NCBI GenBank assembly: GCA_030427885.1
Contig: JAUICM010000004.1
Coordinates: 124,001 to 188,000 of the forward strand
DNA: 64,000 nucleotides
Source of the DNA: Rhodothermia bacterium
Lineage (GTDB): Bacteria > Bacteroidota > Rhodothermia > Balneolales > Balneolaceae
Direction: 5' to 3'
The translations under genes were made by a program, and so were the position numbers. Positions 3,015 through 52,491 of this stretch are shown here, in pieces (the stretch's first letter is position 1; each line of letters begins with the position of its first letter). Under the pieces are notes generated by a model. It ran no database searches, was not told the DNA's origin, and saw nothing but the letters and a program-made list of their open reading frames with translations.

Positions 3015-3316
3015 TTTTTAACCGAATTAGAATTAGGGGTAACAGTATTTCGATCAAGAAACTCCAGGATTCCTTTTACTGGGTATAGAATCTTCCGTCC
3101 ATGTTGGGAATAAGTGATCTGTTTGGTGTCCCGTAAATTTTGTAGAGTTCTCTCTGACCAACCAGTCATTTTTAAAACCTCTTCTTTGGTATAATACTGG
3201 TTAGAAAGGATGATTTTCTCTAGATCTGAGTAGCTGTCTTTTACAGCCTTATCGATCGTTTTTTTGAGGATGTCTTCTATTTGACCCTCGGATATTATGG
3301 TGAGTTTATTCTCCAT
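3011..3316 (-). CDS. helix-turn-helix DNA-binding protein, excisionase/AlpA-like
   Basis: A 101-residue protein with an N-terminal helical region and then a MerR/HTH_17-like domain: YTKEEVLKMTGWSERTLQNL, followed by KQITYSQHGRKILYPVKGILEFLDR. The GRKILYP wing is typical of excisionase or helix-turn-helix proteins found beside integrases in Bacteroidota islands. It overlaps the primase-helicase gene by four bases. The likely roles are recombination directionality factor or replication-origin binder; sequence alone does not decide between them. Confidence 0.8.
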   Translation of the reverse strand: MENKLTIISEGQIEDILKKTIDKAVKDSYSDLEKIILSNQYYTKEEVLKMTGWSERTLQNLRDTKQITYSQHGRKILYPVKGILEFLDRNTVTPNSNSVKK

Positions 3317-3413
3317 TTGTTTGGGGTTTGTTAATATTTACCCCAATGATCGGAGAGTAGCTTTAGAATAGCACACTACTATTCCGAGTAGAAATAGTCA
3401 AAACGATCAATTA

Positions 3414-3447
3414 ATAGACGAAAAGAATTTTTTATAGACGAAAAGAA
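3414..3447. repeat. two 14-bp direct repeats spaced by 20 bp
   Basis: ATAGACGAAAAGAA occurs at 3414-3427 and again at 3434-3447, two helical turns apart, directly downstream of the stop of the gene at 3450-4139 and upstream of the HTH/primase operon. The position and period fit a binding site for an initiator or regulator of that operon. Two copies are too few to call an iteron origin. Confidence 0.45.
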
Positions 3448-3449
3448 AA

Positions 3450-4139
3450 TTATTTAATTCTGAAATATTTTCCGTCAAATCTAGTTCGTGACCTGAAATT
3501 GTCACCAATTCTTTTTTCGTCGTACTTAAAATCATACTCCGCCTCAATTTTCTTATTGATCATTCCTGAGGTCTTACGATTATTCTGGGGCTGGTAAGTT
3601 TCTTTATCTTGGTCTAAGAGGTCATTTGCATAATTAACCATTTCAGAAAAAATAGCATCAGAAATTCTTTTAGCCTTGTATTCTGGGTTCCCTCTTGTCT
3701 CAATAGTTAATTTTGGGGCAGTGATTCCGAATAATTGTGTGCACCGAGCGAACAATTTTATTAGTGCGGGTTTTAGCTTAGGTACGATATTATCTACACC
3801 AGATTTCCTAAATTCCAAAGCAAGCCTATCGACAGACAATTGAATATCCGAGGATATTTTTTCATTGTAGTGTCGGTAATCTGTGTCTATAACTGCGAGA
3901 TCTATTCTAGCCCTCTTGATGACTTCACTGAAATAGTATTCAAAAAACGACAAGGTATATTCCTCTAAATATATAGCTCCATTTTCGTCCCTTTCCTCAA
4001 CACTATACCTTAAAGTTTCTGCTTTTTCATCAAAATTGTGGTGAACATGATGCTCTTCATCTTTAAATCTAAAACTAGTCCTCTCTTCATAGAGTTTCTC
4101 CATGTTTAACCACTTAATGGTTTCTTTAAAATACCGCAT
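3450..4139 (-). CDS. hypothetical protein between integrase and HTH gene
   Basis: A 229-residue soluble protein rich in charged residues and predicted mostly helical, with no signal peptide. It lies 17 bases after the integrase stop and is probably co-transcribed with it. Bacteroidota elements often carry RteC-type accessory proteins in this slot, and the helical N-terminal part is compatible with one, but I see no diagnostic motif. It is best treated as an element-specific unknown. Confidence 0.6.
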   Translation of the reverse strand: MRYFKETIKWLNMEKLYEERTSFRFKDEEHHVHHNFDEKAETLRYSVEERDENGAIYLEEYTLSFFEYYFSEVIKRARIDLAVIDTDYRHYNEKISSDIQLSVDRLALEFRKSGVDNIVPKLKPALIKLFARCTQLFGITAPKLTIETRGNPEYKAKRISDAIFSEMVNYANDLLDQDKETYQPQNNRKTSGMINKKIEAEYDFKYDEKRIGDNFRSRTRFDGKYFRIK

Positions 4140-4156
4140 TAGAGTAAAACGAATTA

Positions 4157-5362
4157 TTAGTTGTAGATCACTGAAAGCGCCTCATCATAAGTCTCTGGAT
4201 CAATAGATGCTAAATAATTTTCAGTGATTTTGATACTAGAATGCCCCAGCAATTTAGAAATATCGTAAATGCTCACACCCTTTTTCCTACTAATATCAGC
4301 AAACGAATGGCGTGATTGGTGAAAATGAATTTTCTTCGATATACCAACCTCAGTTGCAATGGTTTTTAGAGTTGAATTAACCTGTGAATTTCTAGAAGAA
4401 ATATCATTGGAAAGGGTGTCGATGTCGGAATAATCCGTTTCTTGATTCAACAATGGGAAAATGAAATCTTCATCCTCCTTTTCTTTAACCCCATAATACT
4501 CAAAGATTCTACTTAAGTGCGCATTTATTGGTAGCGACATACTTCTCCCTGTTTTTGACATAACGTAGTTTAACCGCCCATTTTGAATATTCTTCACTTT
4601 CAAAAGACAGAGATCACCAAACCGAATACCTGCCATATAATATGCGGCCAAGAAATAGTTTTGTGTATGCCATTTAAAAGAGTTTCTTGCAAACTGATGT
4701 TTAGCGAATAATGAAAGCTCACTCTCAGTTAGTTTCTCTTTATAGACAGGTTCTGTTTTAAGTTTGAAAATAAAGAATGGGTTTTTCTCCTGGCTAGCTA
4801 ACCCTTCTCTGATAGCCTGATAGTAAATCGAACGAACAATTTTAAGATTACTATATATAGTATTCGTTTTATTTCCAAGCCCAGCCAAATAGTTTTCAAA
4901 TTTGGTTAAAAACGTTACATCAATGTCAGAAAATCTAAGAGAAGAGTTAGAGAATTCTTTTAGTTTATTCAGGACGGTGTTATGTCTCTTAAAAGAAGTG
5001 TTTCTTCGGTTCCGCTTATATTTTTGGATATAATTTTCAGCAAAGGGAAAGAAAAAATCTTCTGGAGTCTCCGCAGTGGGTATGTCAATAATGTCATCGA
5101 CTGAAAAGGCGATAGCTCCTAGAAGTAATTGATTAAGTCGGTTTCTGAATAATTCTTCGAGAGCTTCAATTCTTTCATTTATACTTATCCAACCTGTTAA
5201 CGTCTTTTTAACCCTTCCACCACTAGTAGACCAGTATTTAGGTAGTATGGTTTCTTCTGTAGAGATATACCGTGTTTCTCCTTTATGGGAGATTCTAACA
5301 TAGATCTTCTTTTCTCCGTCTTTATTTTTGTAGGGGCGTGTTACTGTTTTAATTTTTGCCAT
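4157..5362 (-). CDS. tyrosine site-specific recombinase (integrase)
   Basis: About 401 residues from the preferred start. An N-terminal Arm-like domain (VTRPYKNKDGEKKIYVRIS) is followed by a SAM-like core-binding domain and a C-terminal catalytic domain. The visible catalytic residues are R in MAGIRFGDLCLL, HQSRHSFA, GH in LLGHSSIKITENY and the terminal Tyr nucleophile. The ATG at 5362 is preferred because an AGGA lies five bases upstream; a TTG and an ATG slightly upstream also stay in frame. It catalyses integration and excision of the element. An orphan terminator 170 bases beyond its start marks the probable attachment side. Confidence 0.92.
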   Translation of the reverse strand: MAKIKTVTRPYKNKDGEKKIYVRISHKGETRYISTEETILPKYWSTSGGRVKKTLTGWISINERIEALEELFRNRLNQLLLGAIAFSVDDIIDIPTAETPEDFFFPFAENYIQKYKRNRRNTSFKRHNTVLNKLKEFSNSSLRFSDIDVTFLTKFENYLAGLGNKTNTIYSNLKIVRSIYYQAIREGLASQEKNPFFIFKLKTEPVYKEKLTESELSLFAKHQFARNSFKWHTQNYFLAAYYMAGIRFGDLCLLKVKNIQNGRLNYVMSKTGRSMSLPINAHLSRIFEYYGVKEKEDEDFIFPLLNQETDYSDIDTLSNDISSRNSQVNSTLKTIATEVGISKKIHFHQSRHSFADISRKKGVSIYDISKLLGHSSIKITENYLASIDPETYDEALSVIYN

Positions 5363-5530
5363 AAGTTTCCTCATCAATTTTTGTACAACATTTGTACAAG
5401 TTTTAGGTGATAGATAACCAGACTTTACTTCTGGATACTAATGATGATGGTACTTATTGATGCTTTACGAGCATCTAAGAGCATGAAACTGCATGAAATT
5501 ACATTCAGTCTAACCCCTCCGGGCGTACAT

Positions 5531-32130: not shown

Positions 32131-32997
32131 ATGAAATCAGCGATGCCATATCACTTCGGTTGCACGGTCTGGAGCCTTCCGGAATGGGTAGGTACGTTTT
32201 TCAAAAAGGACACCCGGCCAGGGGAATATTTGAAGCAGTATTCCTCTGTTTTCAATTCAGTGGAAGGGAATACGACATTTTATGGAACACCGGGAGTGGA
32301 AACCATCAGGCAATGGGGAGCGAATACTCCAGATGGGTTCAAGTTTTGCTTTAAATTTCCCAAAGAGATCACTCATGAAAAGCGACTTCATAACGTGGAA
32401 AATGAGGTAAAACGATTCGTTCATTCCTTTGATGATATCCGCGATAAACTTGGACCGTTTATGATCCAGCTTCCGGATGCTTTTGCACCGGGTGAGATCT
32501 CCAAACTGGAGGAAATGCTGTCTTATCTCCCGAAGACACTGGCGTATTCTGTGGAGGTACGCCATGCTGATTATTTTGATCATGGCAAGCACGAGCATAA
32601 TCTTAATGCCTTGCTGTCCAGTTATGGAGTAGATCGTGTTATTTTTGATACACGAAAGCTGCACGCTACCAGATCGAATGAGCAATCTATCCGTGAGGCC
32701 CAAAAGAAAAAGCCGAAAGTTCCGGTACGTTTCGAAGCATTAGGAAGCCGTCCGGTTCTTAGATATGTAGGAACTAATGATAAGCTCAATAACGAAGCCT
32801 ATTTAAAAGAATGGGGGATCATAGTGGCCGACTGGATCAAAGAAGGAAGACATCCTTATGTGTTTATTCATAGCCCTGATAAAGTATCTCAACCGATGTT
32901 GAACACCTATTTCCACGAGCTATTGTCGGAGCTTATTAAGATACCTGAACTTCCGGATTGGCCAGTGAACCGGGAAGCACAGTTAGGTTTGTTTTAA
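32131..32997 (+). CDS. DUF72 domain protein
   Basis: About 288 residues from the ATG at 32131 (MKSAMPYHFGCTVWSLPEW); an ATG at 32143 is equally possible. An upstream TTG would add 17 residues without a ribosome-binding site. The TIM-barrel-like DUF72 signature is present: FNSVEGNTTFYGTPGVETIRQW, FKFPKEITHEKRL, GPFMIQLPDAF and SVEVRH. It is related to the YecE family, function unsettled. Its stop overlaps by four bases the stop of the convergent gene at 32994. Confidence 0.88.
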   Translation: MKSAMPYHFGCTVWSLPEWVGTFFKKDTRPGEYLKQYSSVFNSVEGNTTFYGTPGVETIRQWGANTPDGFKFCFKFPKEITHEKRLHNVENEVKRFVHSFDDIRDKLGPFMIQLPDAFAPGEISKLEEMLSYLPKTLAYSVEVRHADYFDHGKHEHNLNALLSSYGVDRVIFDTRKLHATRSNEQSIREAQKKKPKVPVRFEALGSRPVLRYVGTNDKLNNEAYLKEWGIIVADWIKEGRHPYVFIHSPDKVSQPMLNTYFHELLSELIKIPELPDWPVNREAQLGLF

Positions 32998-33623
32998 TTC
33001 CCAAGAACAGCGATCAGAGCAGTACTTTGTACGAACGGAAGTTGCTCCGCTCTTTCCATAACCGAGCGTTCTTCACCTGGATCCGCTTTTATGTTTACTG
33101 TTCTGGGGAAATCCTGCTCAATAGAGTAGGCGAGGTCCCTGAATCCTCCCATGATTGTTTTTACCTGTTCAGATGTGATATTATAGTTGAACTGGATAAG
33201 GATATGCTGCTGGGGTCCGGCAGCAACAAGTCGCTGGACAGCCTGATCCAGAAGTTCTCCAGATAGACCCTGGGCACGAAGCTTTTCCCGGTACTCTTCC
33301 GTGTCGGGAGCAATCGTAATTACATCAACTTTTGCAATGTCAGGGTGTTGCCGAAGTGGTTCAAGCCTTGAGGAATCAGGAGAACTTACCACGCGGATAC
33401 CAACCGGATTGATATCTGAAAACACCACTTCAAAACCATTTTCTTCCAATTCAGAAAGTGCATAATCAGGGGAAACCGTATCGCTCAGGAAAGCAATGAA
33501 CTCTCCCTCCATAAAAGTAACATTACCCTGTTGCGCCTGTTGCAGGGCTGATTCATCCATTTGTTGTGCGGAAAGGTTTTGCACAAAGAGGGATAGAACG
33601 AATATGGAAAGCAGGGTCTTCAT
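32994..33623 (-). CDS. secreted protein with two inhibitor-I9-like modules, paralog 3
   Basis: A 209-residue protein. A signal peptide (to about AQQMDES) precedes two beta-alpha-beta modules. Module 1 (about 35-105) runs FIAFLSDTVSPDYALSELE, an IRVV strand and LEPLRQHPDIAKVDV. Module 2 (about 140-205) runs ILIQFNYNITSEQVKTI, TVNIKADPGEE and AEQLPFVQSTALIAV. Each ends with the L..hP.V..v pattern of subtilisin-type propeptides (I9). No protease domain is attached. It overlaps the upstream paralog by four bases. Confidence 0.8.
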   Translation of the reverse strand: MKTLLSIFVLSLFVQNLSAQQMDESALQQAQQGNVTFMEGEFIAFLSDTVSPDYALSELEENGFEVVFSDINPVGIRVVSSPDSSRLEPLRQHPDIAKVDVITIAPDTEEYREKLRAQGLSGELLDQAVQRLVAAGPQQHILIQFNYNITSEQVKTIMGGFRDLAYSIEQDFPRTVNIKADPGEERSVMERAEQLPFVQSTALIAVLGN

Positions 33624-34249
33624 TGAGCATTGTTCAGAGCAATGAACGAAGTTCCGGTGACAAAAGGCAGCGCATCAAGGACTTTCATTGCCTTCCGTTC
33701 TTCATCAACCTTAGTCCGAATAATTACAGACCTTGGAGTGAACATCATTAGTTTGATACCAATAGTGTTATTAGCGCTTACAAAGCCTTCAGCCATTTGC
33801 TCTGTAACATAATATTTAAATGTAATTTGATTGGTAATCATGCTGGTCATAGATCTGAATCGTTTTCGCGCAGCTGCAGAGTCTTCAGCACTCATGTTTT
33901 GATTTTTAACCATTCTTTGAAAAACGTCCTCATTCCAACCTTTGTTGCTGGATTGAATGCTTTCAACATATGGATGCCTGGCCAATCGGGATATTTCCTG
34001 AGACTCATGTTCTCCAATAAAATAACCCCTGAGCGGAAAGATATCCTCTTTTAGAATTTCATAGCCCAAAGCTGAAATTTGCTGGTCAATAAAAGCGGGT
34101 GCAACGGTGTCTGATAGGGAAACATGTACTGCCCCTTTAGTAAAATTATATTTTCCCGGAGGAAGTGTGGCAATACTATCTGTATCCGTTTGTGCATATA
34201 CCGAATAAGAAATAAGAAGAGTGGAAAAGATCAAGAGAGATTTCAGCAT
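33620..34249 (-). CDS. secreted protein with two inhibitor-I9-like modules, paralog 2
   Basis: A 209-residue signal-peptide protein of the same size and layout as its neighbour. Module 1 reads VHVSLSDTVAPAFIDQQIS, YFIGEHESQEISRLARHPYVESI. Module 2 reads ITFKYYVTEQMAEGF, SVIIRTKVDEERKAM, LDALPFVTGTSFIAL. The signal peptide (LLIFSTLLISYSVYAQT) is clean. It is the middle gene of the three and is translationally coupled to the next one (ATGA overlap). Confidence 0.8.
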   Translation of the reverse strand: MLKSLLIFSTLLISYSVYAQTDTDSIATLPPGKYNFTKGAVHVSLSDTVAPAFIDQQISALGYEILKEDIFPLRGYFIGEHESQEISRLARHPYVESIQSSNKGWNEDVFQRMVKNQNMSAEDSAAARKRFRSMTSMITNQITFKYYVTEQMAEGFVSANNTIGIKLMMFTPRSVIIRTKVDEERKAMKVLDALPFVTGTSFIALNNAQ

Positions 34250-34286
34250 ACAGACTTTAAATGTTTAAGAAGTAGGTGTGATCCGG

Positions 34287-34853
34287 TTAAGGTTGATTGG
34301 GCACAATAGTGGCCTTATTCACATATATCAAAGCCTCCAGATCGGAAACCAAGCGCTCGGGAGTCCAGTATTTCGTGGTTATGATAACCGATTTCTTAAT
34401 TCTCGGCTCAAGTTGAATGTTATACCCCGAGTGGATAGTCAAAAACTTGTGAATCATTTCATCTGAAGCCGTACGCTTAAAATGGATCTTGATCACAGGT
34501 TCAAGGTCAGCAAAGGGTTCCTGATAGGGATGCTCAACCGTGATCTCATCCACAAAAGGATGATACATCATTCGGAGCAGGTCGTCGTCGGAAACGGGTT
34601 CCTGAATGACAGCTTCAACCTGTTTGAGATTGGCTTCAATAACACGATAACGGAATAACCGGAAATAATGAGAGATCAATTCTGGTGAAACAGTATCGGT
34701 GAGTTGTAAATAAACGGTGGCTGTTGGTTTGTATGAAAACCCGGTACCATGGTAACTGGGCGGACGCGTCTGTGGGATAACACTGCCGGAAATAAACAAC
34801 ATGAATGCTGCTGTAATGGCGGCCCTAAAAGAAAGTGTGGCAAATCGGTTCAA
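34287..34853 (-). CDS. secreted protein with two inhibitor-I9-like modules, paralog 1
   Basis: A 188-residue protein, shortest and most diverged of the three. Module 1 has VYLQLTDTVSPELISHY and LLRMMYHPFVDEITVE. Module 2 has IKIHFKRTASDEMIHKF, SVIITTKYW and LEALIYVNKATIVPN. The start at 34853 is a TTG without a ribosome-binding site, kept because a later ATG at 34802 would remove most of the signal peptide (AAITAAFMLFISGSVIPQ). It is the first gene of the cluster, 37 bases upstream of paralog 2. Confidence 0.72.
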   Translation of the reverse strand: MNRFATLSFRAAITAAFMLFISGSVIPQTRPPSYHGTGFSYKPTATVYLQLTDTVSPELISHYFRLFRYRVIEANLKQVEAVIQEPVSDDDLLRMMYHPFVDEITVEHPYQEPFADLEPVIKIHFKRTASDEMIHKFLTIHSGYNIQLEPRIKKSVIITTKYWTPERLVSDLEALIYVNKATIVPNQP

Positions 34854-37497: not shown

Positions 37498-37656
37498 TCT
37501 TCTAAACAAAGAAAAACGGTAATTGTTCCATGGGATTGATTGATACTATTTTGACCCGTTTGCTATTAAAGTATCAGTGATAGTAAAAAATGGTCTTGTT
37601 TGGGATGTCCAGTCTTGACAACTTCGCAGGTAGTTTGATAACAAAATTAAGGGTTG

Positions 37657-38127
37657 ATGAGTCTTAATATAATAGAAGCGGATCTTGAAAATTCGGGACA
37701 TGCGGAGCATATCTTATTTCTGACCAATACCTATGCCATGGATATTATGGGTGGAGGAAAACCACTAAAGGATTCGGTTCAGCAAAATCTGGTTGAAGGC
37801 ATGAAAAAGATGCCGACGGCTGTTGTATTTATCGCTTATGAAGATGATAAGCCGGTCGGGATTGCAAACTGCTTTTATGGGTATTCAACCTTCTATGCCA
37901 AGAAACTTATCAATATTCATGATCTGGGCGTAGTTCCTGAAGCCCGGGGTAAAGGAGTTGGAGCGGCACTTATTCAAGCGGTTTCTGAGAAAGCCAAAGC
38001 TACAGATTGTTGTAAAGTGACGCTGGAAGTTCTGGAAAATAATCCGGCGCGTAGATTATATGAGCGGCAGGGTTTCGAATATGGTGATCCCCACTATTTC
38101 TTCATGTCTAAATATCTGGAGAAATGA
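37657..38127 (+). CDS. GNAT-family N-acetyltransferase, paralog 1
   Basis: A 156-residue protein from the ATG at 37657 with AAGGG upstream. The GNAT core is clear: VFIAYEDDKPVGIANCF, the acetyl-CoA loop VVPEARGKGVGAALI, VTLEVLENNPARRLYERQGF. It is clearly paralogous to the gene at 43500 (shared IHD-V-P-ARG-GVG and RRLYER-GFEYG patterns). The ATG of the GH2 gene overlaps its TGA, so the two are translated together. Confidence 0.9.
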   Translation: MSLNIIEADLENSGHAEHILFLTNTYAMDIMGGGKPLKDSVQQNLVEGMKKMPTAVVFIAYEDDKPVGIANCFYGYSTFYAKKLINIHDLGVVPEARGKGVGAALIQAVSEKAKATDCCKVTLEVLENNPARRLYERQGFEYGDPHYFFMSKYLEK

Positions 38128-43499: not shown

Positions 43500-43991
43500 G
43501 TGAGTTTAGAATTAGACGTTGCTGCCGACGTTCAGATAATCAAGGCAGACTTAGACAACAAGAAACACGCATTAGATATCGTCAAGATCGTCGATCTGTT
43601 TGCCCGTGATCCTATGGGACAGGATGAGCCTCTGGAAGAGGAAGTAAGGGTGGATATGATCGCAGAGATGAAAAAGATCCCGACTACGATGACCTACATC
43701 GCCTACCATGATGATGAACCGGTCGGTATCGTTACCTGCTTTATTGGGTTTTCAACCTTTACTGCAAGCAAGACCTTCAAGATCCATGATGTGGCCGTTC
43801 ACCCGGATGCACGTGGATTGGGAGTAGGAACCAAGCTGCTTAATAAAGTAAAAGAAGAAGCGGAAGAAATGGGCTGCTCCAAAGTGACCCTCGAAGTACG
43901 TGAGGACAATCCTGCCAAAAGACTCTACGAAAGAGAAGGCTTCGAATACGGCGAACCACGCTGGTGGTATATGACGCATGAACTTAATTAA
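43500..43991 (+). CDS. GNAT-family N-acetyltransferase, paralog 2
   Basis: A 163-residue protein that starts with GTG; no better start exists because the GNAT domain begins at VQIIKADLDN. The acetyl-CoA motif is VHPDARGLGVGTKLL, followed by VTLEVREDNPAKRLYEREGFEYGEPRW. It resembles the gene at 37657 over the full length. The pair flanks the GH2/GH31 genes, 5.4 kb apart and in the same orientation. The acceptor is unknown. Confidence 0.88.
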   Translation: MSLELDVAADVQIIKADLDNKKHALDIVKIVDLFARDPMGQDEPLEEEVRVDMIAEMKKIPTTMTYIAYHDDEPVGIVTCFIGFSTFTASKTFKIHDVAVHPDARGLGVGTKLLNKVKEEAEEMGCSKVTLEVREDNPAKRLYEREGFEYGEPRWWYMTHELN

Positions 43992-44015: not shown

Positions 44016-44961
44016 TAAGTCCCCCTTAGAAGGGGGGCGAATCAGCACTAATGTTCTGTGCTGATTTCGGGGAGGTGGTTATTGGTCATTTATGTTGATC
44101 CGATATTCATCGGGACACGTTCATTCAAATTCACTTTCTCCACAAATATTTCAGAGGTCGGGTTATTGCCCCACGTATTCAATGTTGGCACCAATTTAAA
44201 TAGCAACTAAAAGTCCTTCCTTGAGGGAGGTGTCATTTTGAACAAGTTCAAAAGACGGAAGGTGTTCGATATGCGGGGGCGCTGCTCAAATTCCAACACC
44301 CCTCACAACATCGTTTGAACAACGATGTTGATCTCCCCTCAAGGGGAGACTCTTTTTTTGTTCTCAGAATGACTGTGTAGGCAAACAACGACTGCCGTTA
44401 ATGGTTTACTCGTTCTTTTGTGCTGACCCTGAGCTACCTCAGGGCAGGCTCCAGAACCAAAAGCACCCGACTGAGATAGCTTATGGGCATTAAATCCCTT
44501 GAATGCTATTCCTTCACCTATCCAAGGCCGGTTTTAGTTGTATTTGATCAACTAAAAGTCATCCTGAACTTGATTCAGGATCTTTGTGGAGATCGGCATT
44601 TTAATTGGGTTAAAATCCCGATCAAAGTTATTCTAACGGCTTCTTTACTTTTGGCTTGACCCAAAAGTAACAAATATTTCAGAGTCGGGTTATTCCACCT
44701 TCTATTTAAGGCTGAAAATTGAATATCTATATCCAAAAAAGAGTCCGGAAGAAATGCGGCAGGGATTAGTTGAAGAAAAGAGCTATCCAGAAACTGAAAG
44801 AATATCAACGGACAGATAGAACGACATCTTCATTTCTTACGGCGAGTTTTGGGTACTTTTGCTCGTTCAAAAGTACCAGAAAGAAAATGGAAAACATTTA
44901 TCCGATCAGGTCCTTCGCGTTCGCTCAGGATGACTGTTAATAAGAATTCATAACTCGTCAT
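44016..44961. repeat. gene-free nest of intergenic repeats left of the BlaR array
   Basis: This stretch has no convincing gene. It holds a family-B-like hairpin (44016-44085, with TCAGCAC/GTGCTGA), a full family B copy (44212-44350), family A fragments (44558-44583 and 44901-44934), a family D copy (44644-44692) and the sequence GGTACTTTTGCTCGTTC with its near complement AAAAGTACC (about 44853-44878). Open frames here are translations of repeats. Confidence 0.7.
44212..44350 (+). repeat. family B repeat, full copy (left of the BlaR array)
   Basis: The copy starts GTCCTTCCTTGAGGGAGG. It contains TTTTGAACAAGTTCAAAA and the palindrome CAACATCGTTTGAACAACGA with TGTTG, and ends CTCAAGGGGAGAC. A copy of the same length and orientation lies at 50464-50603 on the other side of the array. 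Confidence 0.85.
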
Positions 44962-45630
44962 TCATTTTACCTTCTCGACCATCTCGCCCATATCGTAGCG
45001 CTCCATAGCGAGGATGTTTCCATCTTTGTCATAAGAAGCCATCAGACCATCGTATTCACCATGGGTGGTTTCATAGGCGTATTCGAATTCGACCTGCTTG
45101 TCAGGGTAATATTTCTTGACTACAGTTACAGAATCAAAGGAAATGTATTCCCAATCAAGGACGGGTTCCATTCCATTATCTGTTCGATAGATGCTTGATA
45201 CTTTAACTCCTGAATCTCCAATCGACCACGAAGTTTCGAAACGAGATATTTGTGAACCATCAGGATCAAAAAGATCAACCTGAACTTCCTGGCCCTCATA
45301 AAAAACATGCTTCCTGTGAAGGATACCGGTTTTACTGTAGTACCAATTTTGCTCTCCCGTATAAGAGATTCCATCCGGGCCATAGTAAATACTATTAGCG
45401 GAGTTATAGGGAAGATTATCATGGATCTTCTTTGAAATAAGCTCAATATCAGAATAGATTGCATCTTCAGGGACAGGCTCTTCAGTGCAAAAGGTGAGAG
45501 TCAGAAAGATCAACACGGGCAGGGTCACAAAACTTACCATAGCAGATCTGATTCGGGAGCTATTTCGTCCCATCATCAGGAATCTCTTCTTAGTAAGCTT
45601 AAAATCCAGATCACTGGTCAGATGTATCAT
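44962..45630 (-). CDS. BlaR1-tail paralog 4: membrane segment plus YwqK/MORN-like domain
   Basis: A 222-residue protein. It starts MIHLTSDLDFKLTKKRFLMM, which aligns with residues 277-292 of the BlaR1 protein at 48167. A single membrane helix ending LTFCTE follows, then a YwqK/MORN-like domain of about 170 residues with Y/F-rich, DG-containing repeat units (ISYTGEQNWYYSKTGILHRK, MASYDKDGNILAMERYD). Cys after the helix is conserved in all five tails. The start overlaps the upstream gene by four bases. It cannot be a protease; a sensor or decoy role is possible. Confidence 0.8.
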   Translation of the reverse strand: MIHLTSDLDFKLTKKRFLMMGRNSSRIRSAMVSFVTLPVLIFLTLTFCTEEPVPEDAIYSDIELISKKIHDNLPYNSANSIYYGPDGISYTGEQNWYYSKTGILHRKHVFYEGQEVQVDLFDPDGSQISRFETSWSIGDSGVKVSSIYRTDNGMEPVLDWEYISFDSVTVVKKYYPDKQVEFEYAYETTHGEYDGLMASYDKDGNILAMERYDMGEMVEKVK

Positions 45631-46520
45631 CCTTCTTCCCCGTTGTTAATTTCTTCAACAATCTCACCGTTAACTTTGTGTTCATACCGGACGATGTTGC
45701 CCGTTTCGTCCCATTCAGTCGTTTTAGTCTCAATGGTTCCAGAAGGGTATCTTGTTATGGTTGAATGGAACTGAAGGTCACCGTTCTCAAAGTACCCGTT
45801 GTGGATATTACTAGAGGTATCTTTACCACTAAAGTAGCTAAATTCGTATGTCAAAACTTCGGCATCATTTACGATATCGTATACTTTAGTCTCTGAAAAA
45901 TGGGGCTTTGGGTAGGTATAAACAAACTTCTGTACCAGAGTGCCATCTGAGGAAAAGGTATGTCTCGCTTTCGGGGAGCCTAGCTCAGCAAACTTCTCTT
46001 CTGGTCCTGTATAAGTATGTATGGTTCTTCGTACTAAACTATCCTCGGAGTTAAAGTACAAGGTCTCTAATGCCCGCCCGATTTTAGCATATCCCTCATC
46101 AAAATCCGTACTTGCATAAAAGGTTTTCGTGGATAGAGACCCAGTTGAATCGAAGGTAGAGCTCTCAAGCAGGTAGCCATTTTTCACAATATGTTCGAAT
46201 TTGATCAGGTTGGTTTGCCAATCAAACGTTTTTGACGTGCCTGTATAGACTTCTCGTTCCCCGTTAACTTCCGAATAGATCAGCTGATCCGATCCCTTCC
46301 TGTATAAAGGAGGCTTCATATTGCTAAACATAAGCCGGTACTCCGGAAACCAGTAGTCGTTTGAGTCCGTTTTTGTACAGAAGACAAAAGTAGTGATCAA
46401 AAGAGCGGGTAGCAGAACAGATAAAGCCAGACGCACCCTTGTTCTTGAGAACCTTCTCCCCATCATCACAAATCTCTTCTTAGTAAGCTTGAAATCCAGA
46501 TCGCTTGTGAGTTTTATCAT
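45627..46520 (-). CDS. BlaR1-tail paralog 3
   Basis: About 297 residues from the ATG at 46520, with AGGA nine bases upstream; a GTG at 46526 is also in frame. The N-terminus MIKLTSDLDFKLTKKRFVMM is almost identical to that of paralog 4. After the helix ending FVFCTK come about 240 residues of beta-repeat units (ESTFDSTGSLSTKTFYA, TFSSDGTLVQKFVYTYP, TTEWDETGNIVRYEH). The C-terminus GEIVEEI matches the GELIEKI ending of the other tails. It is the third tail of the array. Confidence 0.8.
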   Translation of the reverse strand: MIKLTSDLDFKLTKKRFVMMGRRFSRTRVRLALSVLLPALLITTFVFCTKTDSNDYWFPEYRLMFSNMKPPLYRKGSDQLIYSEVNGEREVYTGTSKTFDWQTNLIKFEHIVKNGYLLESSTFDSTGSLSTKTFYASTDFDEGYAKIGRALETLYFNSEDSLVRRTIHTYTGPEEKFAELGSPKARHTFSSDGTLVQKFVYTYPKPHFSETKVYDIVNDAEVLTYEFSYFSGKDTSSNIHNGYFENGDLQFHSTITRYPSGTIETKTTEWDETGNIVRYEHKVNGEIVEEINNGEEG

Positions 46521-46525
46521 GATCA

Positions 46526-47467
46526 CTAATCCTGATTATTTGCTAATAGTTTCTCAGGTTCTGGTGGAAGAGGCGGGGCTGGTTTTAAGTTCTCATTATC
46601 AAGGTCTTTGCTGAGATTGTTAATGATAATATTCAGCATGAATAGCTGATCATAGAGTTTAGAAAGATCTTCCTGAGAAACGTGCTGTTTGCCTTTCTCT
46701 AAATATTCAGATGTGAGCTCGATATATTTCTGAGTGGCATTTTTATGTTGTTCTTCCAGATAGGCGTTAGCCTGGCGCAGGGTGTTAACATTCTCAGGAA
46801 GAGCAGTCGACATCGAGAAATTTCTATCATAAGGACTCCCGTCTTTAGCATAGCGCTGTGATTGGATATCAAACACAAGAATGCCACTTGGATTAATAGT
46901 TCCAACTCCTTCAAACTTCAGAGTTCCGTCATCGTAATACTGGCGTTTTGATACCAGACTATCAGGGTGATACTCTGATTCTGAACTTAATACCCCTCTT
47001 ATACTGGTGCTTTTGGAAATCAGGGAACCATTTTCATATTTACGTTCAATTTTTTGAAGTTCCGAGCCATCATCATCAAAGCTTATCTCAGTAGTTTTTA
47101 GTCCATTTTCAAACTCGATGGTTTTATCCAGCTGATCATTCCTGGTTAAATAGATCGATTGAGTGCCTGTAAAGGGTTTTCCGTTCGAGGAGTAATACCG
47201 GTTTGTCCGGGAATCATTTTGGCTAAATGCCAGAGGGATGTCGGCATAACGGCCATCATCATAACTGATCCGCAGCTTAGGGTTGGCATCAATTTCAGAG
47301 ATGTCGTCTTTTTTGAATTCTGTGCAGAACATGAAAACGCTGGTTGCCAGTATGGGAAGTAAAAGCAGAGCAGTCCTTGTTGTCCTTTTTCGGGAGTGCT
47401 TTTTTCTCATCATGCCAAAGCGTTTTTTGGCGAGTTTAAAATCCAGATCACTTGTAAGTTTGATCAT
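46526..47467 (-). CDS. BlaR1-tail paralog 2, with coiled C-terminal extension
   Basis: A 313-residue protein: the same start (MIKLTSDLDFKLAKKRFGMM), a membrane helix ending VFMFCTE and MORN-like units (YSSNGKPFTGTQSIYLT, QYYDDGTLKFEGVG). From about residue 220 it differs from the others, with helices and coiled-coil segments (NAYLEEQHKNATQKYIELTS) and a proline-rich end (APPLPPEPEKL). The extension suggests a distinct periplasmic partner. It lies 11 bases after paralog 1. Confidence 0.8.
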   Translation of the reverse strand: MIKLTSDLDFKLAKKRFGMMRKKHSRKRTTRTALLLLPILATSVFMFCTEFKKDDISEIDANPKLRISYDDGRYADIPLAFSQNDSRTNRYYSSNGKPFTGTQSIYLTRNDQLDKTIEFENGLKTTEISFDDDGSELQKIERKYENGSLISKSTSIRGVLSSESEYHPDSLVSKRQYYDDGTLKFEGVGTINPSGILVFDIQSQRYAKDGSPYDRNFSMSTALPENVNTLRQANAYLEEQHKNATQKYIELTSEYLEKGKQHVSQEDLSKLYDQLFMLNIIINNLSKDLDNENLKPAPPLPPEPEKLLANNQD

Positions 47468-47478
47468 AACTTTCTCTC

Positions 47479-48156
47479 CTATTTAATCTTCTCGATAAGT
47501 TCACCGTCTTTGTATAACTCCTGCTGTAGAACGTCTCCGTTCTCTGCATACATAGTCATCATGCCCTGATATTTTCGATTGGAATCCGTGGCCATTTCAA
47601 ATTTTAGCTGGCCGTTTGGATACCATTCTTTCATGGAGCCATCTCCTCGTCCTGGAACTAATATTGAACCCACTGACTCCTTGATCAGCGTATTGTTCTC
47701 ATCATATAATCGGTATCCGGAAGAAAAACCCTGATCATAAGTAAATTCGGTTCGGGTTTTCTGTGCTCCGGTTGAATCAAATCGGGTAGTAGAAACAAAC
47801 AGGCCTTCTTCATATATGGTTTCATGAAGAAGTTTATCGTCTTTTTTACGATAAGTTCGAAGAGTATCATTCACCAAACCGCCATCCCGGGTGTAATATT
47901 CGAGGGCATTTCCTTTGCTGGGAATAGCAGGGTAATAACCTATTTCCAAATTATAGTACACATTCTCATTCTCTCGGGTAGACAGGAAAAAGTAGTCACT
48001 TGAACTACGATCAGTGCAAAAGACCAAAGAAGTGATTCCGACCAGAGGCAAAAGAACAATCCGGGCTATGTTAGTACGAATCCTTGATGAGTTCCTGCTC
48101 ATCATTTTCAGGCGTTTCTTAGTAAGGGAATAATCGAGGCTACTGGTTAAATTCAT
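47479..48156 (-). CDS. BlaR1-tail paralog 1
   Basis: About 225 residues from the ATG at 48156 (MNLTSSLDYSLTKKRLKMM), chosen because it aligns with the other tails and has AGAGA upstream. A longer open frame to 48237 overlaps BlaR1. A membrane helix ends LVFCTD, then come YwqK units (LRTYRKKDDKLLHETIYEEG, WYPNGQLKFEMATDSNRKYQ) and the ending YKDGELIEKIK. It is the closest of the four to the BlaR1 C-terminus, so it was probably the first or latest duplicate. It starts about ten bases after the BlaR1 stop. Confidence 0.82.
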   Translation of the reverse strand: MNLTSSLDYSLTKKRLKMMSRNSSRIRTNIARIVLLPLVGITSLVFCTDRSSSDYFFLSTRENENVYYNLEIGYYPAIPSKGNALEYYTRDGGLVNDTLRTYRKKDDKLLHETIYEEGLFVSTTRFDSTGAQKTRTEFTYDQGFSSGYRLYDENNTLIKESVGSILVPGRGDGSMKEWYPNGQLKFEMATDSNRKYQGMMTMYAENGDVLQQELYKDGELIEKIK

Positions 48157-48166
48157 ATTAATCTCT

Positions 48167-49663
48167 CTATTTAATTTTCTTGATGAGCTCACCGTTTTCG
48201 TATAGCTCTTGTTTAGAGATTCCCCCCTGAGGGTCATATAAGGTTATCAGTCCCTGATAATCCTTCTCAGAGTTTAATGGAATCTCGAATTTCAGCTGCC
48301 CGTTTGGATACCATTGTCTCCATATTTTCAGCCCATCCTCGGTCAAAGACCCTGAAGTACGTTCATCAATGAGAACTTCATCCGAATTAAAAAACCGGGT
48401 AGCTACCCAATCATGATCTATATATTCAGTCTCAGTAATGCCTTTTTCTCCGAGAAAATCATTCATCCCATAAAATGAAGAGCTAACCATATATCCATTT
48501 TCATAATGCTCGGTGGTCAGAAGGGAATCTGTTTGTTTGTCGTACCTTTTAACAACACCGGAAAAAAGTTTGCCATTGTTATCGTAATAGAGTTTTGAGC
48601 CAAATGTACGATTGCCATTCTCTGGATGGGTGAGTTTATAATAAAGCGCAGTGTCCGAATCACCACCGTTGGCTCTGATGAATCCTTCGGGCGCTATATC
48701 GGAACAAAAGCTAAAAGCCAGGATTGCGATAAAAGGAACCATAAGTAGTCGCATAATTCCGGAGCGTATCTTATTGCCAACTTTAGTCATCATCGAAAAC
48801 CGTTTCTTAGTCAGTCCATAATTCAAACTGCTGGTAACGGCTTCTTCCTGAGTTCTCCCTGCTACAGAAAGAAGGAGCTTCTGATAATCCTTGACATCGG
48901 TGCCGGAGCTAAGTGCAAATTCGTCGGCCAGAAACTCATGGTTCAACTGAATGGATCGTTTGAAGATGTACAACAAAGGGTTAAACCAGAACAAAGCTTT
49001 GAGGAATTCAAGGAACAACACATCCCAGGAATGACGTTGCTGAACATGAGCCAGTTCATGATCAAGGATCTCGGGAGTGATCTTGCCGGCCTCGTAATCG
49101 TCTTTATTGAGGAATACATATCGCAGAAAACTGTGCGGTACGATCTTCTCATCCAGCAATACCAGTTTCGATTTCCTGAACAGAACGATCTGGTTACCTT
49201 TTGGTTTGCGGATCAGATTTAAAATTCCCCCGAAAAGCCTGATGACTAACACAGCCGTTACAATTCCATATATACTCCATAACACTGTTTTGAGAGGAAA
49301 AGGGGCAGAGGCCTCCGATGCTGTTGTTGCAGGCTGGATCTGAGTTTCAGAATCAGTAATAGTTTTCTGTCCGGAAGTATCCACATTATTTACCGGAGGG
49401 GCCGTGATCTTGTCTATGGAACCTTCTATAAATTCTGCAGGAGCTTTTACCAACGGCTCTACTGTTGGAATAGGGACATTTCCCTGTGAGGAAAACATAC
49501 CATCTAACTCAAATGTGATTAGGGGTCCGGTTAACCCAAAGACCAAGGCGAAGATCAGAAACGCACGATTAAAGCGGTGCATTTTCTCATTTTCCAGGAT
49601 CAGCTTGTAGATCAGGAAAAGTACTCCCAGCAAAAGAATAGATTTAATGAAATAGGCGATCAT
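48167..49663 (-). CDS. BlaR1-type M56 sensor protease with YwqK/MORN-like C-terminus
   Basis: A 498-residue protein. N-terminal membrane helices are followed by a peptidase M56 domain with the zinc motif HELAH (202-206) and NHE (241-243). The M56 end reads TSSLNYGLTKKRFSMM (277-292), then comes a helix to Cys320, and a YwqK/MORN-like extracytoplasmic domain (about 325-498: LYYDNNGKLFSGVVKRY, WYPNGQLKFEIPLNSEKDYQG). The usual penicillin-binding sensor domain of BlaR1 is absent. It is predicted to cleave the BlaI partner on a signal. It overlaps blaI by four bases. Confidence 0.88.
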   Translation of the reverse strand: MIAYFIKSILLLGVLFLIYKLILENEKMHRFNRAFLIFALVFGLTGPLITFELDGMFSSQGNVPIPTVEPLVKAPAEFIEGSIDKITAPPVNNVDTSGQKTITDSETQIQPATTASEASAPFPLKTVLWSIYGIVTAVLVIRLFGGILNLIRKPKGNQIVLFRKSKLVLLDEKIVPHSFLRYVFLNKDDYEAGKITPEILDHELAHVQQRHSWDVLFLEFLKALFWFNPLLYIFKRSIQLNHEFLADEFALSSGTDVKDYQKLLLSVAGRTQEEAVTSSLNYGLTKKRFSMMTKVGNKIRSGIMRLLMVPFIAILAFSFCSDIAPEGFIRANGGDSDTALYYKLTHPENGNRTFGSKLYYDNNGKLFSGVVKRYDKQTDSLLTTEHYENGYMVSSSFYGMNDFLGEKGITETEYIDHDWVATRFFNSDEVLIDERTSGSLTEDGLKIWRQWYPNGQLKFEIPLNSEKDYQGLITLYDPQGGISKQELYENGELIKKIK

Positions 49664-50031
49664 TGGTTCTTCCTCTCTATTTCTTTTTCAACGATGGATT
49701 TCAACTCCTCCAGTTCTTTGGAAGAGAGATTGGTTTCGGCGGTAAAAAAGGAAGCAAATTGCGCCGCTGAGTTATTAAAGAACTTTTTGATCAGTCCGTT
49801 TACATGCTTCGAGAAATAATCCGATTTCTTAACCAGCGGGAAATACTCTCTTGACCGGCCCCGCTGGTTATAATCGATAAATCCTTTTTCATGCATCCGC
49901 TTCAATAAAGTGGCAACCGTGGTGGGCGCTGGCTTTGGGTCGGGATACATTTCAAGCAAATCACTCATGTAGGCTTTTTCAAGCTTCCAGAGATATTGCA
50001 TCAGTTCTTCTTCTGTTTGTGATAGCTGCAT
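49660..50031 (-). CDS. blaI: BlaI/MecI/CopY-family repressor
   Basis: A 123-residue winged-helix protein: QLSQTEEELMQYLWKLEKAYMSDLLEMYPD and APTTVATLLKRMHEKGFIDYNQRGRSREYFPLV (recognition helix and wing), then a dimerisation helix. It is the DNA-binding partner of the M56 protein, inactivated by proteolysis in this family. It has twin operator-like palindromes within 40 bases of its ATG (50033-50068), lying on its own promoter, so autorepression is very likely. It leads the whole array. Confidence 0.93.
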   Translation of the reverse strand: MQLSQTEEELMQYLWKLEKAYMSDLLEMYPDPKPAPTTVATLLKRMHEKGFIDYNQRGRSREYFPLVKKSDYFSKHVNGLIKKFFNNSAAQFASFFTAETNLSSKELEELKSIVEKEIERKNQ

Positions 50032-50032
50032 T

Positions 50033-50068
50033 TTCTACAATCTTAGAATTATTTCTACAAATGTAGAA
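50033..50068 (-). promoter_or_regulatory. two BlaI-type operators in the blaI leader
   Basis: TTCTACAAATGTAGAA (50053-50068) is a perfect palindrome with the TACA-nn-TGTA core known for BlaI/MecI operators. An imperfect copy TTCTACAATCTTAGAA lies at 50033-50048. The centres are 20 bp apart, two helical turns, which suits cooperative binding of two dimers. The first copy covers the -7 box and the second lies between the start site and the ATG. Confidence 0.8.
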
Positions 50069-50157: not shown

Positions 50158-50656
50158 GTCATCCTGATCCGCCAACTGGCGGAGAAGGATCTTGTTGATG
50201 TGGGGCTTCAAAGTTAGAGATATCAAGATAATTAATTAACGGCCTCTCGTCGATAAGGTCCTTCTCTTTCGCTCAGGATGACTCTGAAATGAAAGAGTTC
50301 TCCCCCTTGTTAAGGGGCAGACAGAGGAGGTCTGAAGATATTACTGATGTGGAGTTTCGGATAAACCTTACTTTTGGCTTGACCCAAAAATAACAAATAT
50401 TTCAGAGGTCGGGTTATTCTTACATCTATCGGATCAGGATGACTTTAATTTTAAGGCGAAAAAAGTCCTCCCTTGAGGGAGGTGTCATTTTGAACATGTT
50501 CAAAAGACGGAGGGTGTTCGAAAGGGCAGTGGCCTTTATTTAATCGCAACACCCCTCACAACATCGTTTGGACAACGATGTTGATCTCCCCTCAAGGGGA
50601 GACTTTATTAAATTCCAATACGGAGTGAATTTTTGGGTACTTTTGCTCAGGATGAC
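50158..50656. repeat. gene-free nest of intergenic repeats right of the BlaR array
   Basis: It holds a long family A copy (50158-50282, with the palindrome TCCGCCAACTGGCGGA variant), a family D copy (50370-50419), a family A end (50434-50443), a full family B copy (50464-50603) and a GGGTACTTTTGCTCAGGATG fragment (50635-50654). The open frames here are repeat translations. Bases 50657-50737 are unassigned. Confidence 0.7.
50464..50603 (+). repeat. family B repeat, full copy (right of the BlaR array)
   Basis: Same orientation and length as the copy at 44212-44350. It has the perfect palindrome TTTTGAACATGTTCAAAA and the hairpin CAACATCGTTTGGACAACGA plus TGTTG, ending CTCAAGGGGAGAC. Confidence 0.85.
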
Positions 50657-50737: not shown

Positions 50738-51502
50738 TCACTCCCCGGAGGTGGCATGAACCTCTGCCTCCTGGGCAAGAGCAAGCACCGCCTGCTGGTA
50801 CATGGAGCTTGGGTTGTAGCGAAGAATTGATTTTTCGAGGGAGCCAGTAACTTCTTTATAGTGTGATAAATAGTTGGCCACCGAATAGATATTGCTGGGC
50901 ATATCGTAGAGATCGCCACCTACAAACCAACGGTTAAGAGACCACGGAATGAACTGAGCATAGGACATTGCCCCGGCATAACTGGATTCCATCTCCATGA
51001 TATCAAGTTTATGATCTTCGGCGAATTCAAGTAGTTCTTCGAGTTGAGCCAGAGCCCACTTTTTGCGATATCCTTCCACATACATACTCACATAGGCATT
51101 GAACGGATTATAACTGCCTCGATATTTACCAAATTCTGATTCTACTCCAATGATTCCAACAATCACCGTTTTGGGAATTCCATAATCGCTTTCCGCTTTC
51201 TCAAGTTCAGCAGCATAGGTTCTCATGAACTCAGCAGCTTTGCCTTTTTTGCGATCGAAATTGATCACTTTTTTATAGTCTTCGATCCCTTCGATCTTGA
51301 TCTCAACGGCGCGCTTGAATTTTCCGGTGATATTCTCGATCAGGCCAAACCGGGAATCCTCAAGAAGAGGTTTTATATCTTTTCCCTTTTTATTGAAATG
51401 TTCGATAAGAGCTTTGATCTCTTTGTCAGAGTCATTAGCCGAGGCCAGTCCTGAAATAAATATCAGCATACAAATGGTGAATAATACTCTCGCTCTCATC
51501 AT
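50738..51502 (-). CDS. MltB-like lytic murein transglycosylase
   Basis: A 254-residue exported protein with a signal peptide (to about ASAND) and an SLT_2/MltB-type domain. Catalytic Glu is in GIIGVESEFGKYRGSYNPFNA. The motifs YAGAMSYAQFIPWSLNRW and YDMPSNIYSVANYLSHYK are typical of the family. It cleaves the MurNAc-GlcNAc bond of peptidoglycan. It has no lipobox, so it is soluble in the periplasm. The last codons run into the repeat-rich region. A peptidoglycan enzyme beside a BlaI/BlaR1 system may be no coincidence, although the strand unit is separate. Confidence 0.88.
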   Translation of the reverse strand: MMRARVLFTICMLIFISGLASANDSDKEIKALIEHFNKKGKDIKPLLEDSRFGLIENITGKFKRAVEIKIEGIEDYKKVINFDRKKGKAAEFMRTYAAELEKAESDYGIPKTVIVGIIGVESEFGKYRGSYNPFNAYVSMYVEGYRKKWALAQLEELLEFAEDHKLDIMEMESSYAGAMSYAQFIPWSLNRWFVGGDLYDMPSNIYSVANYLSHYKEVTGSLEKSILRYNPSSMYQQAVLALAQEAEVHATSGE

Positions 51503-51585: not shown

Positions 51586-52383
51586 TTAATCTGCTAAAAA
51601 AGCAACGATTCTCAGTGGTGCACCGCTCCCGTCTTTGATCTTCATAGGAAGAGCGATCACATAGGCACCGGTAGCGGGAAGCTGATCCAGATTAGTCAGA
51701 TTCTCGAAGCCGGGGATGTTGTTGGCAAAAAGGATCTGATGGGTCTCATACATTTCTGACATTCCAAAATCGATGCTGGGAGTGTCCAGACCAACAGCCT
51801 TCACTTTCCTGTTATCAACCAGCCATTGTGAAGCTTCCGGATGGATACCAGGGAAGCTAAGATTGGCAACGCCTTTCTCACCACGCAAAGTAGTTCCCAG
51901 GTATGCTTCTGCATCAGGCCATTTAGCTCCAAAACCGGTATGAAAAAGCAGGATGGATCCATTGGGTATTACTCCATGCACTTCTTCCCAATGTTGAATA
52001 TCCTGAGCTGAGATCTGATAATCACGATTCTCCATAACTTTGTCAGAGACATCAATTACGATGGCGTTGCCTGTCAGCTGGTCAATGGTTAGTTCATCCA
52101 CCGTTTGCTTTCCTTCGGAGAAATGGATCGGGGCATCCAGATGGGTTCCACCATGTTCCGCTGTACTGAATTTGAATGCTTCATAGTAATAGCCTTTATC
52201 GGTCTGGCCAACAAATACGGTATCAAATTGCCAGGTGTCGGAAGTAGGCCAGTAGAGCGTTTCATGGGAGTAATCATGGGTCAGATCCACCCAACGTCCA
52301 TCATTAAAAGAATGCTTCTCGACTGGAGTACAATTAGCAATGATGAACAAAAACAGAAGTCCATAAAGAGATACAGTTTTCAT
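51586..52383 (-). CDS. cyclase-family lipoprotein (metal-dependent hydrolase)
   Basis: About 265 residues from the ATG at 52383, where a signal peptide with lipobox begins (YGLLFLFIIANCTPVE). A longer open frame to 52464 has no advantage. The cyclase/kynurenine-formamidase motif HGGTHLDAPIHFSEG supplies the metal ligands. Downstream are GSILLFHTGF and AVGLDTPSIDFG. Family members hydrolyse formylkynurenine or isatin-like substrates, but the envelope location here is unusual and the substrate is not evident. Confidence 0.87.
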   Translation of the reverse strand: MKTVSLYGLLFLFIIANCTPVEKHSFNDGRWVDLTHDYSHETLYWPTSDTWQFDTVFVGQTDKGYYYEAFKFSTAEHGGTHLDAPIHFSEGKQTVDELTIDQLTGNAIVIDVSDKVMENRDYQISAQDIQHWEEVHGVIPNGSILLFHTGFGAKWPDAEAYLGTTLRGEKGVANLSFPGIHPEASQWLVDNRKVKAVGLDTPSIDFGMSEMYETHQILFANNIPGFENLTNLDQLPATGAYVIALPMKIKDGSGAPLRIVAFLAD

Positions 52384-52491
52384 AATACAGCATTTATTGA
52401 AAGTCTTTTTAAATAAAAGTATATACCAGCTAACAAAAAAGGCTTTTGGCATTAACAGGATCAATTGAAATTTTTAGAAAATCAGGGAATT

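Follow-up and report, generated by a model that had tools for sequence, protein, structure and literature searches.

Why should an operon for a BlaI-type repressor and its M56 metalloprotease also carry four genes that encode only the C-terminal module of that protease? The question is raised by a 64,000-nucleotide stretch of a marine-type Rhodothermia bacterium of the family Balneolaceae (assembly GCA_030427885.1, contig JAUICM010000004.1, positions 124,001 to 188,000), hereafter called the window, in which blaI, the M56 gene and four short genes, here termed tails T1 to T4, are co-directional on the minus strand. This operon encodes a BlaR1-like unit made up of a single M56 protease and five sensor modules, of which four are free and one is fused to the protease. 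Module identity, conservation, selection, sensor exchange and split operons, all of them read from sequence, suggest that the free tails are probably receptor subunits which dock in trans on the one protease and complete or gate its active site, such that several signals would control BlaI cleavage. While the parts of this system are known, a search of the literature found no description of such arrays of free sensors for this much-studied family of antibiotic sensors.

Organisation of the operon and its tail modules

The blaI gene (49660-50031, minus strand) encodes a BlaI/MecI-type repressor of 123 amino acids (Pfam Penicillinase_R, E=1.1e-27, above the cut-off) and overlaps by four bases with the M56 metalloprotease gene (48167-49663, minus). 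The latter codes for a protein of 498 amino acids with its own fused sensor, a HELAH motif at residues 202-206 and the residues E243, D247, Y260 and R288, and matches the Pfam M56 family (PF05569) with E=1.5e-13 and 51.1 bits against a cut-off of 31. Downstream on the same strand follow T1 (47479-48156; 225 amino acids; MORN_2 at 3.9e-8), T2 (46526-47467; 313 amino acids, with a helical Pro-rich C-terminal extension), T3 (45627-46520; 297 amino acids, or 299 with a GTG start, and the longest repeat domain of the tails) and T4 (44962-45630; 222 amino acids). The gaps are ten bases between the M56 gene and T1, eleven between T1 and T2 and five between T2 and T3 (-1 if T3 starts at the GTG), while T3 and T4 overlap by four bases (ATGA), and this spacing is of the operon type. 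A second M56 gene is present in the same genome, distant from the array.

A preliminary description of this DNA, made from the sequence alone, had proposed that a blaI-M56 pair is followed by four genes carrying only the C-terminal part of the protease, and the coordinates, alignments and Pfam matches bear this out. Each tail comprises a 17-residue linker, the last membrane helix and a YwqK/MORN-like periplasmic domain of beta-hairpin repeats, and aligns with residues 275-498 of the M56 protein. The tails lack the protease part and share 24-36% identity with the fused tail and approximately 30-38% with one another; that the short genes might be unrelated is contradicted by profile searches, which find their relatedness. 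As had been noted, the tails start at the linker, each beginning two to three residues ahead of the motif [LF]TSx[LI][DN][FY]xL[TA]KKRxxMM. The linkers lie, all on the minus strand, at 48788-48838 in the fused sensor (VTSSLNYGLTKKRFSMM) and at 48100-48150 (LTSSLDYSLTKKRLKMM), 47408-47458 (LTSDLDFKLAKKRFGMM), 46461-46511 (LTSDLDFKLTKKRFVMM) and 45571-45621 (LTSDLDFKLTKKRFLMM) in T1 to T4, respectively. The linker residues T, S, L, L, K, K, R, M and M are invariant in all five modules, as is an F-C pair after the helix. The linker is the most conserved part of the tails (mean pairwise identity of 0.63 versus 0.23-0.33 elsewhere), and in a linker alignment of 24 rows only the Arg of its KKR is invariant throughout, a residue that is also retained in all tails of the tree described below. 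The Cys after the helix, previously reported for the five window modules, is indeed present in each of them; among relatives it is common, not universal, with the preceding residue mostly Phe. A lipobox, with a small residue at position -1 of the Cys, was found in none of the four window tails, which all have Phe there, as do most others.

The periplasmic domains have diverged. Only T1 passes the curated cut-off of MORN_2 (PF07661), T2 and T4 match weakly and T3 has no match. Structure prediction gives the sensor, at good confidence, as one long helix (residues 5-47 of T1) followed by successive beta-hairpins, and Foldseek matches the predicted repeat sheet weakly to OspA and Rhs/YD-repeat proteins (best E of 3.6e-5, TM-scores below 0.5, 11-15% identity), a likeness that extends only to a generic hairpin-repeat fold. 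Short beta-hairpin repeats, here periplasmic, are likewise shared with the YwqK/MORN_2-repeat proteins, from which the tails differ in having a BlaR1-type linker and membrane helix attached and in that no toxin partner gene was recognised adjacent to them. The coiled C-terminus of T2 had been taken as a private gain of that tail; helix-rich, Pro-rich endings of the same kind (PPxPPxPEQR type) also close the M56 proteins of genomes G016, G019, G003 and G081, which removes this claim.

Correspondence with the domain-swapped module of BlaR1

In Staphylococcus aureus BlaR1, helix 9 (the last cytosolic helix) and helix 10 (the last membrane helix) are swapped between two chains, and Arg294' of the swapped helix 9 forms a salt bridge to the active-site Asp246 of the other chain (PMC9834060). 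The autocleavage loop (residues 271-289, bond Ser283-Phe284) lies just ahead of helix 9, and when intact it hinders BlaI cleavage (PMC9834060). When 64 M56 proteins were aligned with BlaR1, the zinc-binding and catalytic H, E, H, E and D residues (HExxH, ExxxD) and the equivalents of Arg294, Asp246 and Tyr261 were retained in all of them, with the Arg of the KKR falling on Arg294. A hydrophobic residue (L/I/F) occupies the putative P1' column in 64 of 64, with a register of the scissile bond that is off by four residues between methods. The model of the window protein (mean predicted local distance difference test score of 69) places a helix at 257-269, a loop at approximately 270-281, a second helix at 282-292 and a membrane helix at 298-320, which is the order of BlaR1, and the fused linker corresponds to the last part of the autocleavage loop plus helix 9. 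In a fold search with this model the top five Protein Data Bank matches were BlaR1 entries (8exr with a root mean square deviation of 3.3 over 176 columns, TMt 0.54). By these alignments a tail corresponds to the domain-swapped module of BlaR1, which runs from the last part of the autocleavage loop through helix 9, the carrier of Arg294', and helix 10 to the sensor, and the boundary of the tail genes coincides with the part that is swapped in the S. aureus protein.

Likeness to the BlaR1-BlaI and MecR1-MecI systems (MEROPS M56) further includes the pairing of repressor and membrane-bound M56 protease in one operon, the loop-helix 9-helix 10-sensor order and an operator with a TACAnnTGTA core. 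The window BlaI carries FASFF at the position where MecI and BlaI are cleaved (LVLN|F, by alignment to MecI 1okr), with Phe at P1', and the N-terminal [LF]TSx[LI] of the tails resembles this FASFF. The window system is, however, not a member of the beta-lactam-sensing group. A beta-hairpin-repeat sensor takes the place of the penicillin-binding domain, Pfam yielded no match to a penicillin-binding, class-D-like C-terminal sensor in the M56 protein, and the NCBIfam BlaR1 model scores 24.4 bits against it, far under its 400-bit cut-off. It further differs in that four additional sensor modules are encoded as separate genes and, among its relatives, in that some proteases are without any fused sensor.

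Distribution of free tails

The preliminary description had called for a search for blaI-M56 loci with repeated short genes, and such loci were found. When 59 related genomes were searched with the M56 protein, the short matches were limited to approximately residues 266-498 and clustered beside M56 genes. Locus mapping and a linker-profile scan of 92 Balneolaceae genomes revealed 13 genomes, from six genera, with arrays of one to seven free tails. Relatives with free tails include a Gracilimonas metagenome-assembled genome (ALOHA_A2.5_46) and a Balneolaceae metagenome-assembled genome (KhS_metabat.64). Three orphan tails with no M56 gene nearby occur in a seventh genus of this family (G024 C8:13690, L040; G034 C1:698150, L042; G065 C2:546771, L093); they retain the membrane helix and repeat domain, and the linker start is lost in all three. 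Tails adjoining an M56 gene share one start point, and 29 of 30 collected tails begin two to three residues before [LF][TAS][SN]x[LIF][DN][FY], in a collection that was partly built with a loose form of this motif; independent profile searches added four tails without it, namely the three orphans and one degenerate G033 gene.

When the linker profile was run against 297 Bacteroidota genomes, some of them Balneolaceae, only fused M56 proteins were found outside that family, save for one apparently frameshifted gene, and in a plasmid collection only distant Bacteroidales M56 proteins matched. The fused BlaI-M56 systems of Polaribacter, Algoriphagus, Kordia and others share a related BlaI, the M56 N-domain and the LTKKRxxMM linker, with a similar operator in most, and differ in forming one fused protein with another, often longer C-terminal domain and, in the sample covered, no free tails. 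In the window genome and in G005, G033 and G010, the same homologues of lpd and lipB, named by sequence reading, are found close to the array, which marks it as one ancestral locus with a changing copy number. Many Balneolaceae operons also contain a second, tandem M56 protein (L033:7731-9578, L037:4817-6394, L043:7390-8970, L092:6658-8433) whose linker is of a kind such as LASSFNF and whose periplasmic domain differs, resembling the ExbD/TolR type on reading of the sequence.

Split proteases

In two of the genomes with arrays, which represent two genera, the M56 protein ends directly before the linker, with lengths of 271 (G033) and 263 (G010) amino acids. The zinc-site residues are retained, the proportion of non-synonymous differences (pN) is unremarkable and the divergence is like that of intact relatives. 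Five free tails follow in G033, with one degenerate tail further on (L035:6235-6987), and three follow in G010, mostly with four-base overlaps. The G033 protein terminates in EKIK, as the sensors usually do, and the next tail starts inside its stop codon, so that the operon appears to have precisely lost its fused sensor and retained the free ones. A frameshift artefact is unlikely, as the G033 genome is a single contig in which the first tail has a typical free-tail start, and the G010 split is independent with a three-base gap; the M56 genes of G299 and G079, which are apparently frameshifted, were excluded. In the split operons the free genes are the only possible source of the missing helices and sensor, if the protease needs these to work.

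Exchange of sensors between fused and free positions

Alignment of the tails and construction of a tree, both suggested in the preliminary description, show fused and free sensors interleaved. The tree of 46 tails and fused sensors requires at least five forced changes between the two kinds. With the periplasmic part only (22 rows) a single clade of free tails is rejected (approximately unbiased test, p-AU 3.2e-6), and the fused and free labels are spread no better than when shuffled. In G011, for example, the fused sensor clusters with free tails of G003, G031, G078 and G079, and the free tail with fused sensors of G024, G066, G068 and G085. The linkers remain of their own type (TTSG in fused, FTSH in free modules) while the sensors intermix, which places the exchange between linker and sensor, and by this tree the sensor domains have moved between fused and free positions.

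Maintenance of the tail genes

The ratio of non-synonymous to synonymous substitution rates (dN/dS) is approximately 0.14-0.28 for free tails and 0.13-0.14 for fused sensors; the values are drawn from close pairs, and in other pairs the synonymous sites are saturated. The free tail genes are maintained under purifying selection. Many tails start in a four-base overlap with the previous stop, and in G033 such overlaps follow one another through blaI, the M56 gene and five tails. Two other origins named in the preliminary description can be dismissed: the dN/dS values in relatives exclude pseudogenes, and assembly duplication is ruled out by paralogues that are just 30-38% identical with near-saturated synonymous sites.

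Operators and regulation

Two putative operators precede blaI. Operator 1 (50053-50068; TTCTACAnnTGTAGAA) is a perfect inverted repeat, with half-sites TTCTACA and TGTAGAA separated by AA, and operator 2 (50033-50048; TTCTACAATCTTAGAA) is an imperfect copy directly before the blaI start codon. The perfect 16-mer is found once per genome, before blaI, in 11 of 13 related genomes (0 for a reversed-pattern control), and the double arrangement is kept in nearly all Balneolaceae loci read. From these sites the operon most likely controls itself. A wider BlaI regulon found no support: in the window's own genome, allowing one mismatch in the 14-base operator gives no more sites than its reversed control does, and the one further perfect 14-mer (C12:8526), close to a gene for NAD synthetase, looks like chance. 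Further BlaI targets with weaker sites are possible.

Proposed function of the free tails

Each free tail is proposed to insert beside the M56 protein in place of the swapped module, where its Arg would pair with the active-site Asp and its [LF]TSx[LI] segment would act as a gate positioned within or close to the active site. A periplasmic signal that binds any of the diverged sensors would then shift the helix and allow the protease to cut BlaI, and cut BlaI would leave the double operator, inducing the operon with its sensors. The array would thereby act as a receptor with many inputs and one output. Physical docking, gating and ligand-driven activation are inferred here, while the idea of the tails as co-receptors, raised earlier, has gained support from the split relatives, the exchange between fused and free sensors and the match to the swapped module of BlaR1. 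That the protease of some relatives lost its own antenna while separate ones were kept suggests that several sensors serve one protease. A broader formulation, which we hold at slightly better than even, is that the M56 protease is a hub to which interchangeable free receptors are added in trans, completing and controlling it, with signals added by duplicating and diverging a subunit of approximately 220 residues and with an obligate hetero-oligomer in some genera.

Several points weigh against this interpretation. Arg288 is equated with Arg294' by alignment only, and the domain swap is known for S. aureus BlaR1 alone. The residue opposite BlaR1 Phe284 is Leu284 by phmmer and Leu280 by multiple alignment. 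Split proteases occur in just two genomes, and most arrays retain a fused sensor, such that the free tails may not be strictly needed there. The sole strong operator precedes blaI itself, which would leave the downstream output unclear.

Of the other explanations, the one that fares best, though we consider it unlikely, takes the free tails as inhibitory or decoy subunits, with the N-terminus as a pseudo-substrate in the M56 active site or the swap interface holding the protease off and the periplasmic domain merely anchoring or tuning. The resemblance of the tail N-termini to the BlaI cut site and to the BlaR1 autocleavage loop, which hinders BlaI cleavage when intact (PMC9834060), fits this proposal, and in a probably self-regulated operon the tails could provide negative feedback. 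Competition of the tail N-terminus for the active site is possible. Split proteases would, however, then have inhibitors only and no sensor, and the exchange of periplasmic domains with fused sensors points to a sensor role. A shed decoy, as previously suggested, finds no support, given the lack of a lipobox in the window tails and the cytosolic position of their most conserved part, the linker, which a periplasmic decoy would not need.

Somewhat less probable still is a role for the tails as what the circuit produces, namely envelope proteins synthesised upon BlaI cleavage and anchored by a membrane helix borrowed from the protease gene. Most genomes have no perfect operator besides that of the operon, so that its own products, and in some genomes adjacent MltB-type and cyclase genes, are the only obvious targets. 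An output protein would nevertheless not need a cytosolic linker with an invariant Arg as its most conserved part, and the loss of its own sensor by a protease that has free tails beside it would be unexpected.

There is little to commend the proposal that the tails sense for another partner, such as other M56 proteins of the genome or homodimers, rather than for the neighbouring protease. It would account for the orphan tails away from any M56 gene (G024, G034, G065) and could draw on the second, distant M56 gene of the window genome, yet the arrays lie inside the blaI-M56 operon with overlapping starts, the orphans lose the linker start and the split M56 proteins have no module of their own. 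That the tails are functionless, decaying by-products of tandem duplication is the least credible explanation, as the copy number of zero to seven at the same locus and the degenerate or orphan copies (G033, G024, G034, G065) are set against open frames throughout, the low dN/dS, a conserved start point, translational coupling and orthologues between species.

How a signal outside the cell drives the M56 protease inside it has been called an outstanding question for BlaR1 (PMC9834060). If the free tails are receptor subunits of the M56 protease, a naturally split protease with separate helix 9-helix 10-sensor subunits would offer a system in separate parts, where supplying or omitting a subunit can reveal what the swapped helix and its Arg do, and the array would show how bacteria can place a single protease under the control of many inputs.

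Neighbouring genes and other features of the window

An MltB-like lytic transglycosylase is encoded at 50738-51502 (minus strand). Such a gene recurs in the vicinity of the operon, with ten loci having one close to blaI or the array, and a functional link is only possible; its presence hints at the cell envelope and may instead reflect inherited synteny. A cyclase-family protein (51586-52464, minus) is encoded near the blaI operon in four loci. Loci with MltB-like or cyclase genes also include L033, L034, L035, L037, L039, L043, L090, L091 and L096, in which these genes vary in position, being upstream of blaI or downstream of or within the tail array. An intergenic repeat of approximately 50 bases, 96% identical, occurs in the same orientation on both sides of the array (44653-44700, 50376-50425 and about 44142), with further partial copies in the genome, and might allow the locus to recombine.

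Two related GNAT-like acetyltransferase genes (37654-38127 and 43500-43991, plus strand) lie around two sugar-hydrolase genes, and one GNAT-like kind adjoins the array in several relatives. A small tandem family of three consecutive, apparently related genes for proteins of approximately 190-210 amino acids, with a common segment like FMEGEFIAFLSDTVSP, is located at 32994-34853 (minus). A phage- or plasmid-type primase-helicase and a tyrosine integrase are encoded at 1536-5377 (minus), suggesting an integrated element near the start of the window.

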